Origin: Rhodoferax ferrireducens T118
Lineage (GTDB): Bacteria; Pseudomonadota; Gammaproteobacteria; Burkholderiales; Burkholderiaceae_C
Length of the DNA: 64,000 bases
Direction: 5' to 3'
Assembly (NCBI RefSeq): GCF_000013605.1
Contig: NC_007908.1
Location: 1,922,001 to 1,986,000, forward strand
Part shown: positions 30,849-38,293 of the stretch, piece by piece
Layout of the letters: every line of letters starts with the position of its first letter
How positions within the stretch are numbered: the stretch's first letter is position 1
Translations under genes and position numbers: made by a program
Notes under the pieces: model-generated
Told to the model about the DNA's origin: nothing
Seen by the model: the letters and a program-made list of their open reading frames with translations, nothing else
The model's database searches: none

Positions 30849-31775
30849 TTATCGCATCGCAGCCACCATCGGCAAGCGGGACTTGCAGCGCGGATAGTTG
30901 CTGCAGCCCCAAAACGCAGGGCCACCCTTGGCTGGTGTGCGCTCCACCAGCTTGATGCCACAACTCGCGCAGGTGGGGCGCCAGTATTCGCCTTCATGCG
31001 CCACAGCCAGCAAGGCCTGCTGTTGCTCCGGCGTGCGTTTGGCAATCAATGCCAGCAGGGCAGGGCCGTCCATGGCGTTGATGCCGTTGGCTTTGGCGAA
31101 CTGCTGCGCGTCCGCCGTGTAGGTGGATGTGGTGGCGTAGGTGCCGCGCTTGAGTTGGTGCGAGGCCATCACGCCAAAGAACTCGCGGATCTCTTTCACC
31201 CCCACCGCCTTGCCCTGCCAGTGCTTGCACTGCACCACGGCCACCGGGCCTTGCGCATTGGCCGAGTGCAGCCAGATGTCCACGCCGCCGTCTGCGCCGT
31301 GCGATTGCGAGCGTGTTTCAAACCCGGCTTGGGCAAACAGCGCTTCACACACGGCTTCAAAGCGGCGCCACTCGATGGCGGCAAAGACGGCGGGGCTCCA
31401 GCGGGTTGCGACCTGCCGTGTTGGGGGTGCTGCAGCGCTTGGCGCGCGCCGGTGCGCAGCAATGTCATCCTTAGTGCCTTGCAGCACTGTTCTTTCCGTA
31501 GGTGTGGGTGCGCGCGGAGTGAGTTGGGGCAGGGGATTGGTTTTTGCGATTTTGGCCTGGGTCACATGGTGAATGCCCAACAGCACCACCCCTGCCGCCA
31601 ATGCCAACCAGCCAGGAGTGCGAAGGCCCGCCGCGACGACCTTGAGCATCGGCGAAGAGCCGATGAACCAGGGAATGATCAGAAACCCAAGGCCCAGAGC
31701 GCAAAGCCCAATGCCTTTCTCCTGCAATGTATTGACTGCACGCTTCTGCCGCTTGTTGGACTTTGACCTGGCCAT
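30849..31775 (-). CDS. Membrane-anchored Mrr-like nuclease with zinc finger
   Basis: A 308-aa protein. Two N-terminal membrane segments (LCALGLGFLIIPWFIG and LALAAGVVLLGIH) precede a restriction-endonuclease-like Mrr_cat domain: FEAVCEALFAQAGFETR, GADGGVDIWL and VAVVQCKHWQGKAVGV, giving the E...D...QxK catalytic pattern. The C-terminus has a topoisomerase-type C4 zinc ribbon with CASC and CSNYPRCKS. Such DUF2034-type proteins are thought to cut or guard DNA at the membrane; the target is unknown. Flanked on both sides by copies of the 57-bp repeat. Confidence 0.85.
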   Translation of the reverse strand: MARSKSNKRQKRAVNTLQEKGIGLCALGLGFLIIPWFIGSSPMLKVVAAGLRTPGWLALAAGVVLLGIHHVTQAKIAKTNPLPQLTPRAPTPTERTVLQGTKDDIAAHRRAPSAAAPPTRQVATRWSPAVFAAIEWRRFEAVCEALFAQAGFETRSQSHGADGGVDIWLHSANAQGPVAVVQCKHWQGKAVGVKEIREFFGVMASHQLKRGTYATTSTYTADAQQFAKANGINAMDGPALLALIAKRTPEQQQALLAVAHEGEYWRPTCASCGIKLVERTPAKGGPAFWGCSNYPRCKSRLPMVAAMR

Positions 31776-31946: not shown

Positions 31947-32664
31947 TCAGACTGGATGGAAGTCTTGCGGCCACAAAAAGTAGGGGCCGAAACGTGACTT
32001 GGCGACGAACTCAACGCCAGCTTTTTCTCCCTTGGGGCTCAAGACATGCTTTTCGCCGTCGAACGCCAGATAGCCTTGCTCAGTAGCGCGATCCAGAAAC
32101 TGCGCTGTTTTCAAACCCAATTTCTGGCCTATCTTGGATGAAGTCAACTTGTCCTCCCTGTTGGCTCCATCAGCACCTTTGTCATCGTCCCGGCTGGACG
32201 CTTCGGGTTCGCTGATCACCCGTTCCAGTGATATACGTACTTCATCGCTGATGCGGATGATGCGCTGGGCTTCTTCATAGGCGTCCTTGTACAACTGACT
32301 GTCCTCAGCGCGTCGAATCAGAATGCCCATCTCGTTGTTGTTGACCTGGCTGAATTCATAGAAATTCAGACTGGTGACGATGCACATCTCTTCATTCATG
32401 TAGCACTTGGCATGCAGGTTTTTGCAGAAGCTGGTGCGGATGTAGGTCAAGCCGCGCAATCACTCAATTTCCTGCGGCCACAACTCACTTTTGCCGTACA
32501 CGATGCGCATGTGTCGATCTTGAGCCTGTTTTTGTCCGCCAGCAGTTCTTTTATGCGGTCGTTGAGCTTGAGAAATGGGCTAATCAGGATTAGTCGGTCG
32601 ACGCACCCTTGATCATCTCTTCAAGGAAATAGTTGGTGGCGCTGGTGTTTAGAAATCTTGTCAT
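31947..32664 (-). pseudogene. Decayed phospholipase-D-like nuclease gene
   Basis: Three pieces of one gene. MTRFLNTSATNYFLEEMIKG begins at 32664 and soon stops. After a frameshift near 32605, RLILISPFLKLNDRIKELLA continues. After another near 32515 the frame MRIVYGKSELWPQEIE meets a TGA (32460-32462) where a Trp is likely. The last 170 codons are open and include the PLD-type HAKCYMNEEMCIVTSLNFYEF (HxK...N). Homologues are PLD-family nucleases, some linked to restriction or DNA repair. The lesions could in principle be sequencing errors, but three within 200 bases point to decay. Confidence 0.8.
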
Positions 32665-32739
32665 TTGAATTCTGATGACCCCCTAATGATGCATCTATTA
32701 GTGTCTGGTCAATTGGAATCTGATCCTAATTCCCATGAA

Positions 32740-33228
32740 TTATTTGCTAGCCAGCGATGTAATTAGTGCAAATGTAAATGCACATCCGAGAAAACCACAA
32801 ACAACGAAAACTGTACCAAAAGACTTGGTGTAGGTAAGACGATTTGTGAATATTGGAAATGTTGCGATAGGGTTTTGCTGGTCAATGGAAAATGGTAAGT
32901 GCTGAACTACTGTCGAATTTTTTAGAAAAAAACTTTCTATTTCTAAAAGAGATTTTTCAGCATTCTTTATCAAGTCTTTTGTTCTTTGGTCTATTTTCCA
33001 GAAAATGAATGCCAACATTGCCATTAATGGCCCAATCATTATTGTCAAATGTGAGTCGGCGAATTGCGGCTTCGACTGAAGTACAAAAAAACCAGCTCCA
33101 ATGAGTGCAGTCTCGAGTGTTATAAAAAATTGAAAAGCACTCATCCTCTGTTGTGCATGTAGGGAAAAATAGTTCCAACAGTGATTTCTGATTTCCGATT
33201 CGATGGATGGGTCAAAGGATGAGCTCAT
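32740..33228 (-). CDS. Small membrane protein of the accessory cassette
   Basis: A 162-aa protein with three likely membrane segments (FITLETALIGAGFFVLQ, LTIMIGPLMAMLAFIFW, GTVFVVCGFLGCAFTFALI). A charged helix IDQRTKDLIKNAEKSLLEIE lies between the second and third. The N-terminus WNYFSLHAQQRMSAFQFF resembles RipA-type or SLATT-like small membrane proteins, but I am not certain of either. The start overlaps the stop of the 650-aa HTH protein gene by 4 bases, so the two are translated together. AT-rich compared with flanking genes, which suggests transfer. Possibly the membrane effector of a defence cassette. Confidence 0.7.
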   Translation of the reverse strand: MSSSFDPSIESEIRNHCWNYFSLHAQQRMSAFQFFITLETALIGAGFFVLQSKPQFADSHLTIMIGPLMAMLAFIFWKIDQRTKDLIKNAEKSLLEIESFFLKNSTVVQHLPFSIDQQNPIATFPIFTNRLTYTKSFGTVFVVCGFLGCAFTFALITSLASK

Positions 33229-35177
33229 AAATTTACTTGGTGATAGTGCATTGAGAATGCATTTAATAGAAGGCGATTTCGGGAAATAACTCGAACGGTA
33301 CTGCCAGTATCTTTCTCTATTAGTCTATAATTAGCCGAGTCTTTTATAAACTCTAGTGACAAATTATTTTTGATTAATTTCGAGAGTATCGTGGCGCATT
33401 GGTCCACCGTTCGAACAACCAAAATTCCATTTAGAACTCCTGTAGAGAGGATAACTTGGAGAGCCAGCGGATGAATTTCTCTGAATAATCTAGCGCGTCG
33501 CTCGAAGATTATTGCATTGGCTACAAATGCATTGATTATGGACTCACGAAAATCTTGGATCGAGATGGATGTGTGGTCTCCTCTTTTGCAGGCGTCGAGC
33601 CATTTTCTGTATTTGGACCGGAAATTCTCGGGAATCCTACTTTGTTCCTCATAGAGATCAAAATCGGCCCAGTGAGTCTCAGCAATTTGACCAAGTTCAG
33701 AATCGTCTAACATAACTAGTAGCGCAGTCAGAACATATCCGAATATCGCTTGCTGGTCGACACTTTCATCAATAGAATCGCGCTCTTTGTCATCAAGCAT
33801 GCCCAATAATTCAATTCTATTTTTCTTGAACAAACTTTCTGTGTCGTGTGAGCCATCCGGAAAACTAAGTCTTGGAACATAGACGATTACAGGCTTACCT
33901 TGTCCAAGCGCAACACTGGCCTCAGAATCTTTGCCAAAAGTGTCAGTTTTCTGTGCCATGTAAATAGTCACTGATGCGCGTTTAAGCATCAGTGCCTCCA
34001 CTAATCCCTTTGCTATTCTGTCGTCTATCCACGATTGTGTTGGATTGAAGTGGCGTAGTTTTAGGTCTTTTACTTGGCTGTGAAAAAATAATTTTTCGGT
34101 AAAGGTATTGACAGAAACAAAGTCGGCGTCTGAGCGCATGGATGTTGCTACGTATACGTCCAAAAAATCAGAGGCCAAGTAGAATGCCAAATTCTCCAAT
34201 GCTTGCATCTGAGTGTGGCCCATTTGTTTGATCTCGTCATCTGATTTTGGTGCAAGCCTGTCTGCTTCCAGATCAATCTCGTCCGCACTAGGTGCAAACA
34301 ATGATGAAAAGAGTCCATGCTGAAAATGAGATTCGAATTTTCGGAGCAATGAATCCATTCGAATTTTTGTTTTACTTGGAATATCTGCTATCGCTCTGCT
34401 TGGATCTTTCTCACGAAATGCTGTCGCTAAACTCTTCAGAAATCGACTCAGAGTTCCCCGTTCATCATTCTCCTGTTTCACTCGCGCGGCGGAGATGTAT
34501 CCTAGATCAGGTAATCTCTCATCAACAATCTCGTTGGGTATTTTCCAGTCAGCACGATCACTGTATCCCTTAATATCTTTTATATCAATTGCCGCAAGAC
34601 ACTGATCGATGTTAGTTGCCTTGTTCAGTTTTTCGTAACCATCTTCGAAAGTGCTATACATTCGGACGGCATCTTCTTGGTAGATTAATACCGAATTTCG
34701 AAATGCGGTTGGTGAAGTAAAACTATTAGTCTTAAAGTACTTCTTGAAGAACTGTTGGCTAGCAGGCCTAACGCCGTAGAAAACTAATATGCTATTGAAG
34801 AGATTGTGAAGTTGAAACTCTGAATTGGTGCCGTCGAACAGGCGTTTTATGGCCTTATCTGCAACAAGGCGAGTACTAGTTTCATGTCTGTCAAGCGTGA
34901 CACTCCGACCGCACAACTCAGCTAATTGCTCCTCAAAATCTGATCGTGTTTGAACGTCTTGATCTAGAAACTCCATCCAATAATTTTTTGGAATATCGAG
35001 GTGGATGCAAATTTGTTCCAAAATATCTGCTCTTGGCAGACGAAGACCTTGTTCAAGATGTGCGATATTGGATCGGTTGATTCCAGGTAGTGCACTACTA
35101 AGTGCATCTTGTGACAATTTTTTGTGTTCACGCATGGACTTCACCAGTTCACCAAGTCGTTCTCGAGAATTTTGCAT
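33225..35177 (-). CDS. HTH protein with deoxyribosyltransferase/TIR-like domain
   Basis: A 650-aa protein. Residues about 6-63 are an XRE-type helix-turn-helix (LGELVKSMREHKKLSQDALS...NRSNIAHLEQG). A long helical middle follows. Residues about 338-437 look like a Rossmannoid domain of the nucleoside deoxyribosyltransferase/TIR-like sort: DVYVATSMRSDADF, then RHFNPTQSWIDDRIAKGLVE, then TDTFGKDSEASVALGQGKPV with a candidate catalytic Glu at about 419, then VIVYVP. The C-terminal 200 residues are helical and unrecognised. The domain call is by eye and not certain. It lies between a methylase and a small membrane gene, AT-rich, in a region of decayed defence genes. Confidence 0.65.
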   Translation of the reverse strand: MQNSRERLGELVKSMREHKKLSQDALSSALPGINRSNIAHLEQGLRLPRADILEQICIHLDIPKNYWMEFLDQDVQTRSDFEEQLAELCGRSVTLDRHETSTRLVADKAIKRLFDGTNSEFQLHNLFNSILVFYGVRPASQQFFKKYFKTNSFTSPTAFRNSVLIYQEDAVRMYSTFEDGYEKLNKATNIDQCLAAIDIKDIKGYSDRADWKIPNEIVDERLPDLGYISAARVKQENDERGTLSRFLKSLATAFREKDPSRAIADIPSKTKIRMDSLLRKFESHFQHGLFSSLFAPSADEIDLEADRLAPKSDDEIKQMGHTQMQALENLAFYLASDFLDVYVATSMRSDADFVSVNTFTEKLFFHSQVKDLKLRHFNPTQSWIDDRIAKGLVEALMLKRASVTIYMAQKTDTFGKDSEASVALGQGKPVIVYVPRLSFPDGSHDTESLFKKNRIELLGMLDDKERDSIDESVDQQAIFGYVLTALLVMLDDSELGQIAETHWADFDLYEEQSRIPENFRSKYRKWLDACKRGDHTSISIQDFRESIINAFVANAIIFERRARLFREIHPLALQVILSTGVLNGILVVRTVDQCATILSKLIKNNLSLEFIKDSANYRLIEKDTGSTVRVISRNRLLLNAFSMHYHQVNL

Positions 35178-35189
35178 GTGCCGATCTCT

Positions 35190-36011
35190 CTAGTAATTTT
35201 TTACGACAACTTCCGCTGCCATTTTTCTATGCCCAGCAAAACCGGCAATGTTCCTTCGAACTTGTATCGTCGTGCTATTCCATCGTTTGGAGAATCTTGA
35301 GATCTCCGCACATTCGGTGTAGGAGAGCATGAATTTCACTCCTCTTCTATCAGCCGCATTCAGTTCAACCCAGAGATTTTGAATATCTCGCAGGCCAAAA
35401 GAACTGGCGTCATACTCGCAAAATTCATTGTGTTCCTTGGAGGCGTAGGGTGGATCGACATACAAGAAATCTCCTCTTTTAGTACGAGAAATCGTTGTTT
35501 TGAAATCGTCGTTTCTGAGTTCGCAGTTATTGAGAAGTCTACTCGCGTCGGATACTTCTTCCCTTGACAGAAGTTTTGAGTTTCGCTGGCCGCTATATGG
35601 AACGTTAAACTGACCGGATTTATTTGTTCGATAAAGCCCGTTAAAGCAAAGCCTATTGAGATAGAGAAAACGCGCGGCGCGCTCCACCTTGGTCAGAGCT
35701 TGCGGTTCAAGTGAACGAACTAAATAATATATTTCTCGATCATCAGGCAAGCTTTCATATTTCTCCATAACTGACTTATTTCTTGATTTAATTAAGTCGA
35801 GTGCATTTATCAACTCCGAGTTGATGTCTGATAGTACTGAACTTGCTGGTTCAGATAAGAAAAATAAACTAGCTGATCCACAAAATGGCTCAATATAGCG
35901 ATGCATAACCTGTGGAAACTGTGGTAAAAGATACTTTGCCAAATATCTCTTACTTCCTGCCCAGCGAAGAATTGGTGTCATTTGGTTTGAGATATTGTTC
36001 CGGAACGCCAT
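35190..36011 (-). CDS. Dam-type DNA adenine-N6 methyltransferase
   Basis: A 273-aa D12-class methylase. LRWAGSKRYLAKYLLP (motif X), YIEPFCGSASLFF (SAM motif I), LNRLCFNGLYRTNKSGQFNV as in Dam enzymes, and the catalytic DPPY at residues 186-189 are all present. Similarity in the target region to E. coli Dam suggests GATC recognition, which is inference. M11 is an alternative start. No cognate restriction enzyme is adjacent; instead it is followed 12 bases later by the 650-aa HTH protein gene, so it probably belongs to the same three-gene unit. AT-rich. Confidence 0.88.
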   Translation of the reverse strand: MAFRNNISNQMTPILRWAGSKRYLAKYLLPQFPQVMHRYIEPFCGSASLFFLSEPASSVLSDINSELINALDLIKSRNKSVMEKYESLPDDREIYYLVRSLEPQALTKVERAARFLYLNRLCFNGLYRTNKSGQFNVPYSGQRNSKLLSREEVSDASRLLNNCELRNDDFKTTISRTKRGDFLYVDPPYASKEHNEFCEYDASSFGLRDIQNLWVELNAADRRGVKFMLSYTECAEISRFSKRWNSTTIQVRRNIAGFAGHRKMAAEVVVKNY

Positions 36012-36398
36012 CCACGTTGGCGTGCCACGTAACTATTAAATAGGCATCCTCATTGCTGTCTGCATAGTGAGTGATTGTTTTTCTACTATTCAAATCAGCG
36101 TGCCCCCCGCGCTTGACGGCCGGCTGTGCCGTCGTTCCCAATCTTGATGTGTGCGCACTGAGGCCTCGGGCAGTTGCAGAAGATGCGTCTGAAAAAGGCC
36201 GGACTTCATTCTGATATGCGGACTGCTGGCGCGTCAATATGGGTGACCAGCCAGACTTTTCATGCTCGCATTTCACCACGCGTTGAAAGGGGAAGTTCCG
36301 CGCCCAAGTCACGTTTGGCGCCGAGCTGACCCAGTTCTTTGTCAGTCATAAAAATCTATCTCCGTGTCTAAATGGTCACTAGCCCTGCTCTAGATAGC
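36012..36398. other. Intergenic region upstream of dam with antitoxin remnant
   Basis: The first part, AT-rich, must hold the promoter of the dam-HTH-membrane unit on the minus strand. The middle is open in a minus frame of 120 codons that has no recognisable family and no start signal. The right end holds the remnant at 36260-36349. A very weak resemblance to the 57-bp repeat (ACTAGCCCTGCTC...AGATAGCTC) lies at 36370-36402. Confidence 0.4.
36260..36349 (-). pseudogene. N-terminal remnant of an XRE antitoxin-like regulator
   Basis: ATG at 36349 starts MTDKELGQLGAKRDLGAEL, which is the usual N-terminus of HigA/XRE-type regulators, and then the frame ends after 29 codons (MRA-TGA). The rest of the gene (helix-turn-helix) is missing, as if replaced by the neighbouring AT-rich insertion. 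Short, so the call is tentative. Confidence 0.5.
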
Positions 36399-38222
36399 TC
36401 ATCTTCCCCACGAATCCTCCAACCCCACCGCCAGATTAAACACCGGCTTCGCTTTCGTGTGGTCCACCCCATCCGCCACAAAGTACCCATGCCGCTCAAA
36501 CTGAAACTTCTGGTCAGCGCGGGCGCTGGCCAGGGATGGTTCCACAAACGCCGTCACCACTTTCAGGCTGTTTGGGTTCAGGGCCTCGATAAAGTCTTTG
36601 CCGCCCGCGTCGGGTTGGGCCTCCAGAAACAGGCGGTCGTACAGGCGCACTTCAACCGGCAGGCCGTCGGCCACGGCGACCCAGGTGATGACGCCTTTGA
36701 CCTTGACGGCGTCGCTGCCGGGGGTGCCGCTCTTGGTGTCGGGCACCAGCGTGGCTTGTACCTCGGTCACGCGGCCGTCCGCGTCTTTGGTGCAGCCGGT
36801 GCATTCCATGACGTGGCCGTATTTCAGGCGCACCTTGTTGCCGGGGAACAATCTGAAAAATCCTTTGGGCGGCGTTTCTTCAAAGTCCGTGCGGTCAATC
36901 CACACCTCTTTGCCGATCTTGAATGCGCGCTTGCCCAGCTCGGGGTGGTGCGGGTGAAGGGGGGCGGAGCAGTCGTCAAGCTTGCCCGCGCCCATCACGT
37001 CATCCCAGTTGGTCAGCACCAGTTTCACCGGGTCCAGCACGGCCATGGCGCGGGGGGCGCACACGTCCAGCGTTTCGCGCAGGCAGCCTTCCAAAGTTGA
37101 ATAGTCAATCCAGCTGTCGCTTTTGGTGACGCCAATACGTTCGGTAAACAGTTGAATCGCCTCGGGCGTGTAGCCACGCCGGCGCAGGCCGACTATTGTT
37201 GGCATGCGCGGGTCGTCCCAACCCTTGACCTTGTGGTCGTACACCAGTTGCGCCAGCTTGCGCTTGCTGGTCACGACATAGGTCAGGTTCAGGCGGGCAA
37301 ATTCGTACTGGTGCGGGGGTGGGCTACTTAACAGGCCGCCTTCTATCAGGCGCTCCATCAGCCAGTCGTAAAACGGGCGCTGGTCTTCAAATTCGAGCGT
37401 GCAGATGCTGTGGGTGATATTCTCCAGCGCGTCCTCAATCGGGTGGGCAAAGGTGTACATCGGGTAGATGCACCATTTGTCGCCTGTGTTGTGGTGCGTG
37501 GCGCGGCGAATGCGGTAGATGGCGGGGTCGCGCAGGTTGATGTTGGGGCTGGCCATGTCGATCTTGGCGCGCAGCACCATGGCGCCGTCTTCGTGCTGAC
37601 CGTCGCGCATTTCGCGAAAGCGGGCCAGGTTCTCGGCCGGGGTGCGGGCGCGGAACGGGCTGTCGACACCGGGCTTGCCGAAATCGCCCCGGTTGATGCG
37701 GATTTGCTCCACCGTTTGCTCGTCCACATAGGCGTGGCCGGCTTCGATCAAATACTCGGCCGCGCGGTACATGAAGTCGAAGTAGTCGCTGGCCTGGTAG
37801 GGCGTGGCGGTGGGCGAGCCGTTCCACTCAAAGCCCAGCCAGCGCACCGAGTTCATGATGGTGGTGACGTACTCCAGCTTTTCTTTTTCGGGGTTGGTGT
37901 CGTCAAAGCGCAGGTGGCACACGCCGCCAAAGTCGCGCGCCAGGCCAAAGTTCAGGCAAATGCTCTTGGCGTGGCCGATGTGCAGGTAGCCATTGGGCTC
38001 GGGCGGAAAGCGGGTGCGGATCTTGGCCGGGTCAGGCTGACCCTGGGCATGGTGCGCGGCATCACCGGGGCTGCCGGCCCAGCGGCGTGTAGCGTAGGTG
38101 CCGGCGGCCAGGTCATGTTCGATGATCTGGCGCAAAAAGTTGCTGGGTTTGACGGGCTCAGAAGCAGCGGCGGCGGCTTTGGTGGCGTGGGCCGGGGGTG
38201 TTGCGGGGTTGGGGGTGCTCAT
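36399..38222 (-). CDS. glnS: Glutaminyl-tRNA synthetase
   Basis: GlnRS charges tRNA-Gln. The 607-aa class I synthetase has FPPEPNGYLHIGHAKS (HIGH motif), LRFDDTNPEKEK, the tRNA-acceptor segments SICTLEFEDQRPFYDWL and a KMSKS-like VTSKRKL. The C-terminal beta-barrel anticodon domain has DRTDFEETPPKGFFRLFPG. MSTPNP at 38222 is taken as start; 13 in-frame codons upstream are not conserved-looking. An Ala-rich N-terminal extension of about 30 residues precedes the first conserved block (SNFLRQIIEHDL). Confidence 0.97.
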   Translation of the reverse strand: MSTPNPATPPAHATKAAAAASEPVKPSNFLRQIIEHDLAAGTYATRRWAGSPGDAAHHAQGQPDPAKIRTRFPPEPNGYLHIGHAKSICLNFGLARDFGGVCHLRFDDTNPEKEKLEYVTTIMNSVRWLGFEWNGSPTATPYQASDYFDFMYRAAEYLIEAGHAYVDEQTVEQIRINRGDFGKPGVDSPFRARTPAENLARFREMRDGQHEDGAMVLRAKIDMASPNINLRDPAIYRIRRATHHNTGDKWCIYPMYTFAHPIEDALENITHSICTLEFEDQRPFYDWLMERLIEGGLLSSPPPHQYEFARLNLTYVVTSKRKLAQLVYDHKVKGWDDPRMPTIVGLRRRGYTPEAIQLFTERIGVTKSDSWIDYSTLEGCLRETLDVCAPRAMAVLDPVKLVLTNWDDVMGAGKLDDCSAPLHPHHPELGKRAFKIGKEVWIDRTDFEETPPKGFFRLFPGNKVRLKYGHVMECTGCTKDADGRVTEVQATLVPDTKSGTPGSDAVKVKGVITWVAVADGLPVEVRLYDRLFLEAQPDAGGKDFIEALNPNSLKVVTAFVEPSLASARADQKFQFERHGYFVADGVDHTKAKPVFNLAVGLEDSWGR

Positions 38223-38293
38223 GCGAATGATTTTAGACTGCGCAGTGCTCTGAAGTACCATTCTAGGTCCGGCGCGCTCCCTTACCCAACCCT

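Follow-up and report, generated by a model that had tools for sequence, protein, structure and literature searches.

A three-gene cassette of Rhodoferax ferrireducens T118 as a candidate anti-phage module whose central protein also lies beside known defense systems

Thoeris and other TIR systems combine a signaling enzyme with a separate effector, and the C proteins and BrxR/CapW regulators are DNA-binding families that have become attached to unrelated defense systems. The nucleoside deoxyribosyltransferase (NDT)-like effectors of type II-A retrons also have a DNA-binding part, and that of Retron-Eco1 reportedly hydrolyzes NAD+, going by the title of one cited reference. Portions of two papers (PMC12887533, PMC12548924) provide a precedent for an NDT-like defense effector in Retron-Eco1, and name a GATC-methylating phage enzyme as the trigger of the type II-A retrons Asa1 and Squ1. 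Here, we describe a cassette of three minus-strand genes in a 64,000-nucleotide stretch of Rhodoferax ferrireducens T118 (contig NC_007908.1, positions 1,922,001 to 1,986,000; the whole stretch is hereafter called the window), encoding a Dam-like DNA methylase, a 650-amino acid (aa) protein that joins a helix-turn-helix (HTH) to an NDT-like domain (HTH-NDT), and a 162-aa membrane protein of the 8xMP family. The trio most likely represents a bacterial anti-virus module for which no description was seen, and its central protein also occurs beside several known anti-virus systems. A preliminary description of this DNA, made from its letters alone, knew of no named system with these genes; likewise, no account of either the trio or the HTH-NDT family was found among the papers listed from the open-licence full text of PubMed Central, where the 8xMP name retrieved four papers, none of them relevant by title. 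A BREX-linked description was rejected as a match, because the main text of PMC12839542 contains no NDT or XRE terms.

We tentatively favor an anti-phage module in which HTH-NDT serves as sensor and enzyme, 8xMP as membrane effector, and Dam as a self mark or guarded component. More specifically, the HTH and helical part of the 650-aa protein would sense a cue of infection, in all likelihood DNA that is foreign or wrongly modified, whereupon the NDT domain would cleave or rearrange a nucleotide or NAD+ via Glu419. As an oligomeric pore or channel, 8xMP would act with, or be gated by, this reaction and thereby stop the infected cell, and Dam would methylate host DNA as the self mark or guarded component. 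Anti-phage activity itself is putative, as are the enzymatic activity and its substrate, the pore, the trigger, and the part played by Dam. A defense role, as proposed in the preliminary description, is supported because (i) defense genes lie near relatives of HTH-NDT; (ii) the cassette occupies a variable site next to glnS; and (iii) 8xMP elsewhere stands beside TIR- or NDT-type genes. Overall, the preliminary interpretation is partly supported.

The three open reading frames (ORFs; 35190-36011, 33225-35177, and 32740-33228) are all on the minus strand, and the tight packing noted earlier was reproduced exactly, with a 12-base gap between the first two and a 4-base ATGA overlap between the second and third. 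The cassette is AT-rich relative to its surroundings (GC 0.412 versus 0.590 across the remaining window), being the lowest-GC stretch of its length in the window at 100-base steps; of 608 same-length stretches, all those clear of it have GC of at least 0.45. Its features are as follows.

35190..35981, minus strand: Dam-like D12 N6-adenine DNA methylase, 263 aa (PF02086, TIGR00571)
33225..35177, minus strand: 650-aa HTH-NDT protein, a putative sensor that would also process nucleotides as an enzyme (homologue search, AlphaFold model)
34980..35153, minus strand: XRE helix-turn-helix, residues 9-66 (PF12844)
33867..34172, minus strand: NDT-like Rossmannoid core, residues 336-437 (Tyr342, Glu394, Glu419)
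33921-33923, minus strand: codon of Glu419, in the NDT-like core
33363..33509, minus strand: putative C-terminal lobe, residues 557-605
32740..33228, minus strand: 162-aa membrane protein of the 8xMP family, putative membrane effector (PF24838)

The AlphaFold model of the 650-aa protein has a mean predicted local distance difference test (pLDDT) score of 86.0 and a predicted template modeling (pTM) score of 0.77, and the Rossmannoid stretch of this predicted structure resembles NDT enzymes most. Consistently, the nucleotide-processing type of fold that had been proposed for residues 338-437 was predicted there, and the proposed XRE HTH was recovered by PF12844. Neither a TIR nor a WYL family matched the protein, only HTH families appearing in Pfam at E<=10. 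Nor was an NDT sequence family found in Pfam at that threshold; NCBIfam, PADLOC, and PHROGs matched only within residues 1-184, and in a sequence search of the PDB, profile A1 matched HTH regions only and profile A2 nothing below E 0.28. Many NDT alignments of the model stop near residues 600-605 (each alignment being reported by its two end residues alone), and the lobe at 557-605 probably completes the NDT fold beyond a helical insert; 22 of the 34 columns from 557 to 590 are conserved at >=95%. Homologues number 1,099 at E<=1e-3, and the 120 listed span 83-100% of the protein and all retain Glu419. This residue falls in register with the NDT glutamate of G-x3-E-x7-GKP in an hhalign alignment of 17 columns at 31% probability, in a part of the model (residues 411-420) that has low confidence. 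The HTH is conserved far less than the NDT pocket. The activity would be N-glycosidic cleavage or transfer, on a nucleotide or NAD+. The 650-aa protein presents an invariant enzyme-like pocket that carries no sequence-family name.

To follow the three genes together, we inferred co-occurrence where matches of different cassette proteins share the size of the longest contig, comparing the 25 best HTH-NDT matches with 37 8xMP matches and the 120 listed Dam matches. By this measure, 16 of the 25 (the window's own included) are paired with 8xMP and/or a listed Dam match, nine having both partners and two 8xMP only; one further 8xMP and Dam pairing has no listed HTH-NDT match, and none of the 95 HTH-NDT matches ranked 26-120 is paired with 8xMP or a listed Dam match. 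The recurrence of the trio in other genomes, on which the preliminary description had staked its proposal, was confirmed in the DNA of a Burkholderiales metagenome-assembled genome (locus L002), in which Dam, HTH-NDT, and 8xMP follow glnS directly in the same order. Across ten trios, identities to the window proteins fall together (rho 0.97, 0.99, and 0.95; the sequences are related, so that P values are not independent tests), as expected for a unit inherited together. The trio is the arrangement of one clade; most of the HTH-NDT relatives examined have other or no recognized partners.

The small membrane protein noted earlier scores 35.9 bits against PF24838 (8xMP; cut-off, 30) and is modeled with three long helices (7-51, 65-104, and 133-160; mean pLDDT 82.8) as a monomer of what Pfam describes as an octameric membrane protein family. 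It has 37 homologues at E<=1e-3, counting itself. A Foldseek search of the model against the PDB gave no match at E<=0.001, and other structural matches were set aside as generic helical bundles. Within the phylum, 22 of 249 genomes have a PF24838 match, which exceeds the cut-off in 16 (including the window's own), and we examined 18 8xMP neighborhoods, 15 of which are over the cut-off. In five of them, a TIR- or NDT-type gene lies alongside.

L113:4201-5615: 8xMP directly beside a TIR_2/SEFIR gene (80.7 bits)
L114:4601-6103: 8xMP directly beside a TIR_2-like gene (25.5 bits, under the cut-off of 28)
L116:4274-5117: 8xMP directly beside a ThsB_TIR gene (45.7 bits)
L104:3074-4543 (G1097:C1): 8xMP and a 353-aa NDT-like/prok_STING protein in a two-gene run, 9 bp apart (STING, 32.0 bits; NDT, 20.2 bits, below the cut-off)
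L105: NDT-like gene about 0.8 kb from 8xMP on the opposite strand (23.4 bits, below the cut-off), the gene between them being Nudix-like by eye

When the called ORFs near 8xMP were scanned with an NDT profile, nothing matched; the NDT gene of L104 was missed because another frame had been called there. These pairings suggest that 8xMP is the membrane output of nucleotide-based immune enzymes in bacteria, possibly as a pore. Alternatively, HTH-NDT could itself be the toxin, depleting NAD+ or nucleotides, with 8xMP only anchoring or restraining it. The NDT-like effector at work in Retron-Eco1 and the triggering of Asa1 and Squ1 by a GATC-methylating phage enzyme (parts of PMC12887533 and PMC12548924) would fit such a direct action, as would the fact that HTH-NDT works without 8xMP elsewhere, L002 alone of L002-L024 having it. 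We nevertheless consider a direct toxin unlikely, given that 8xMP is co-inherited in the trios seen and stands elsewhere beside signal-type enzymes, e.g., ThsB-TIR.

For relatives of HTH-NDT, strict peptide patterns yielded 23 loci from 84,980 species genomes; because the patterns are strict, relatives were surely missed. Three more loci came from the phylum of genome G308. The family is rare: among 299 genomes of the same taxonomic family, and again among 369 of the same class, it was found in the window's own genome alone, and in the phylum of G308 it was found in 4 of 377 genomes, G308 among them. No relative was found by tblastn in plasmids and phages, and none of the 25 stretches of viral contigs that fit a pattern is one. 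Eight of the 26 loci have a defense partner either next to HTH-NDT or within its gene run.

L002: Dam and 8xMP
L005: DrmD (1081.6 bits) and DrmMI (1283.2 bits)
L007: N6_N4 methylase, D12 methylase (by similarity), and a short gene with a weak nuclease match
L010: HmaA, HmaB, and HmaC, each >1000 bits
L012: D12 methylase, then a DpdB/DndB-like gene
L021: SNF2 helicase and MmeI-type methylase, which group with those of L005
L023: PDC-M30/M41 genes at about 0.5 kb or less
L042:3938-10068: HTH-NDT, a 93-aa gene, GajA (704.7 bits), and GajB (627.3 bits) in one tight run

At L042, HTH-NDT is apparently an accessory gene of a Gabija system. In the Nannocystis locus L022 (G307, L035-L036), the HTH-NDT match is split into two adjoining pieces whose open frames differ, which suggests that the copy is broken or that the sequence contains an error. 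As a far control, we scanned 67 ORFs (>=200 aa) situated >=6 kb away from the match in 24 loci (PADLOC, E<=1e-25). Forty families matched, each of the 25 listed in one member; these comprise L010 HmaA, which shares an operon with HmaBC of that locus, along with DrmD/DrmA/BrxH look-alikes, and kinase-, PD-T4-6-, and mad6-type models, with mad3 also in L002. Among near proteins, 8 of 20 (again including L010 HmaA) match PADLOC at this threshold, a comparison that is unmatched because the choice of near proteins was partly guided by interesting matches in Pfam and the scan covered only part of the 87 near ORFs.

Adjacency to several unrelated systems, together with a position upstream of defense genes in L005, L012, and L042, could also mean that HTH-NDT is a ligand-sensing transcriptional regulator of many defense operons, in the manner of WYL regulators or restriction-modification (R-M) controllers. 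The XRE HTH, with the R-M controllers C.BclI and C.AhdI among its structural matches, agrees with this idea. Nevertheless, a regulator appears improbable: its HTH is much less conserved than its NDT pocket, the upstream regions have no exact palindrome in common, and a length of 650 aa together with an invariant candidate active site would, in our judgment, be unusual for such a protein. RptR was rejected as the same regulator, as it has 79 aa (PMC12255303). Because relatives adjoin several unrelated anti-phage systems, one biochemical answer for the HTH-NDT pocket would explain part of many loci. A bolder form of the favored module, which we regard as doubtful, is that HTH-NDT reads the adenine methylation kept by Dam and makes a nucleotide-derived messenger that opens an octameric 8xMP channel, while also serving across phyla as a shared back-up alarm of DISARM, Hma, Gabija, and methylase systems.

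The identity of the methylase stands as first described, with scores far over the cut-offs (PF02086, 151.8 bits; TIGR00571, 215.6 bits), strong matches to the PADLOC MTase_II/oMTase profiles, a DPPY motif shared by 33 of 34 relatives checked, and M.DpnII (2dpm) as the best PDB sequence match (E 1.1e-41). Its start is probably at 35981 rather than 36011, 10 codons upstream, because the ATG at 35981 gives a frame of 263 aa, the length of 16 of the 17 closest listed relatives (96% of the window's methylase covered). Going by its relationship to M.DpnII, the enzyme may methylate GATC. It is the sole PF02086 match in this genome, and family-library scans matched no nuclease family in the other two cassette genes.

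The cassette sits between glnS and a nuclease gene in a site that varies among relatives.

36399..38261, minus strand: glnS, anchor of the variable site (named from its sequence)
31947..32733, minus strand: broken PLD-family nuclease gene (PF13091, 20.8 bits, under the cut-off of 27)

The glnS upstream of the L002 trio is 71.5% identical, and glnS DNA was matched in 25 of 30 same-genus genomes. In the six of these examined downstream (regions L055-L060), the genes 3' of glnS vary and are often defense genes.

G1053: type IIG enzyme (1197.6 bits) and MNT-type gene (88.9 bits), strong PADLOC matches
G1080: type IV enzyme (255.4 bits), strong PADLOC match
G1075: SspH-like (181.9 bits) and PbeC/DndD-like (966.9 bits) genes, strong PADLOC matches
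G1084: weaker type II nuclease match (44.6 bits), McrB-like by eye
G121: 972-aa gene (24.8 bits), then an intact PLD gene
G214: 507-aa gene with no match, then an intact PLD gene

As previously described, the PLD gene of the window is decayed; it is 81% and 84% identical to the intact 238-aa ORFs of G121 and G214, respectively, and is a probable older occupant of the site. The remnant at 35950-36312, formerly taken for a truncated antitoxin-like gene, has no Pfam match. Near the cassette, a gene at 30849-31775 encodes both an Mrr-type catalytic domain and a topoisomerase-type zinc ribbon and is possibly a type IV restriction enzyme.

A variable site, an AT-rich cassette, and a first gene that is the only D12 methylase of the genome would also suit a selfish addiction unit, in which Dam is coupled to a toxin that fires upon loss of methylation, R-M-like but with no nuclease. 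We regard this as very improbable, as the HTH-NDT family is also found beside DISARM, Hma, and Gabija genes, and neither L005 nor L010 yielded a Dam relative (L042 being in the same searched set).

Several results weigh against the anti-phage module that we favor. Regarding the enzyme, no match was found past residue 184 in four family libraries, Foldseek gave none at E<=0.001 for the model against the PDB and BFVD, the profile-profile comparison with NDTs gave a match of only 17 columns (P 5e-4, probability 31%), and the Glu419 loop has a mean pLDDT of 52. The 8xMP model has no informative fold match. As to partners, 9 of the 25 best HTH-NDT matches are paired with neither and 5 with Dam only; 8xMP lies next to HTH-NDT in L002 alone of L002-L024, so HTH-NDT does not need it elsewhere. 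No defense partner was recognized in 18 of the 26 loci, for six of which (L004, L008, L015, L018, L020, and L022) the neighbors were unscanned by family library. Likewise, no TIR or NDT partner was seen in 13 of the 18 8xMP regions, where partners may be hidden because these were judged by ORF beginnings, not by Pfam. Finally, the 417 bp upstream of the operon lack GATC, and the commonest exact palindrome occurs in 3 of 28 upstream pieces, within shuffle range (exact palindromes only, approximate gene starts); thus, the earlier suggestion that the HTH protein senses methylation state gains nothing from either search.

Compared with described systems, the cassette resembles type II-A retrons in having an NDT-like domain in a defense operon, with GATC methylation as a possible trigger there (portion of PMC12548924), but differs in its Dam and 8xMP partners, its length of 650 aa, and the helical insert in its NDT fold; a retron was rejected by a motif test, in which all six frames of the window lacked Y[AVM]DD, the motif of reverse transcriptases. 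As in Thoeris and TIR signaling, a Rossmannoid enzyme of nucleotide-processing type stands beside a candidate effector gene, and at other loci ThsB-TIR and TIR genes adjoin 8xMP itself; in contrast, the cassette enzyme is NDT-like with an HTH and no TIR match, and the third gene is 8xMP rather than ThsA. With C proteins and the WYL regulators (BrxR/CapW), it shares one DNA-binding family on several unrelated defense systems, whereas the 650-aa protein lacks a WYL match and is most conserved in its enzyme-like pocket, not in its HTH. Type II R-M systems differ in that no nuclease family is matched in this operon, the Mrr-like gene being outside the cassette. The methylase is akin to orphan Dam/DpnII-like methylases in its TIGR00571 and PADLOC MTase_II/oMTase matches and in having M.DpnII as nearest sequence among solved structures, and the cassette is set apart from them by its HTH-NDT and 8xMP companions.

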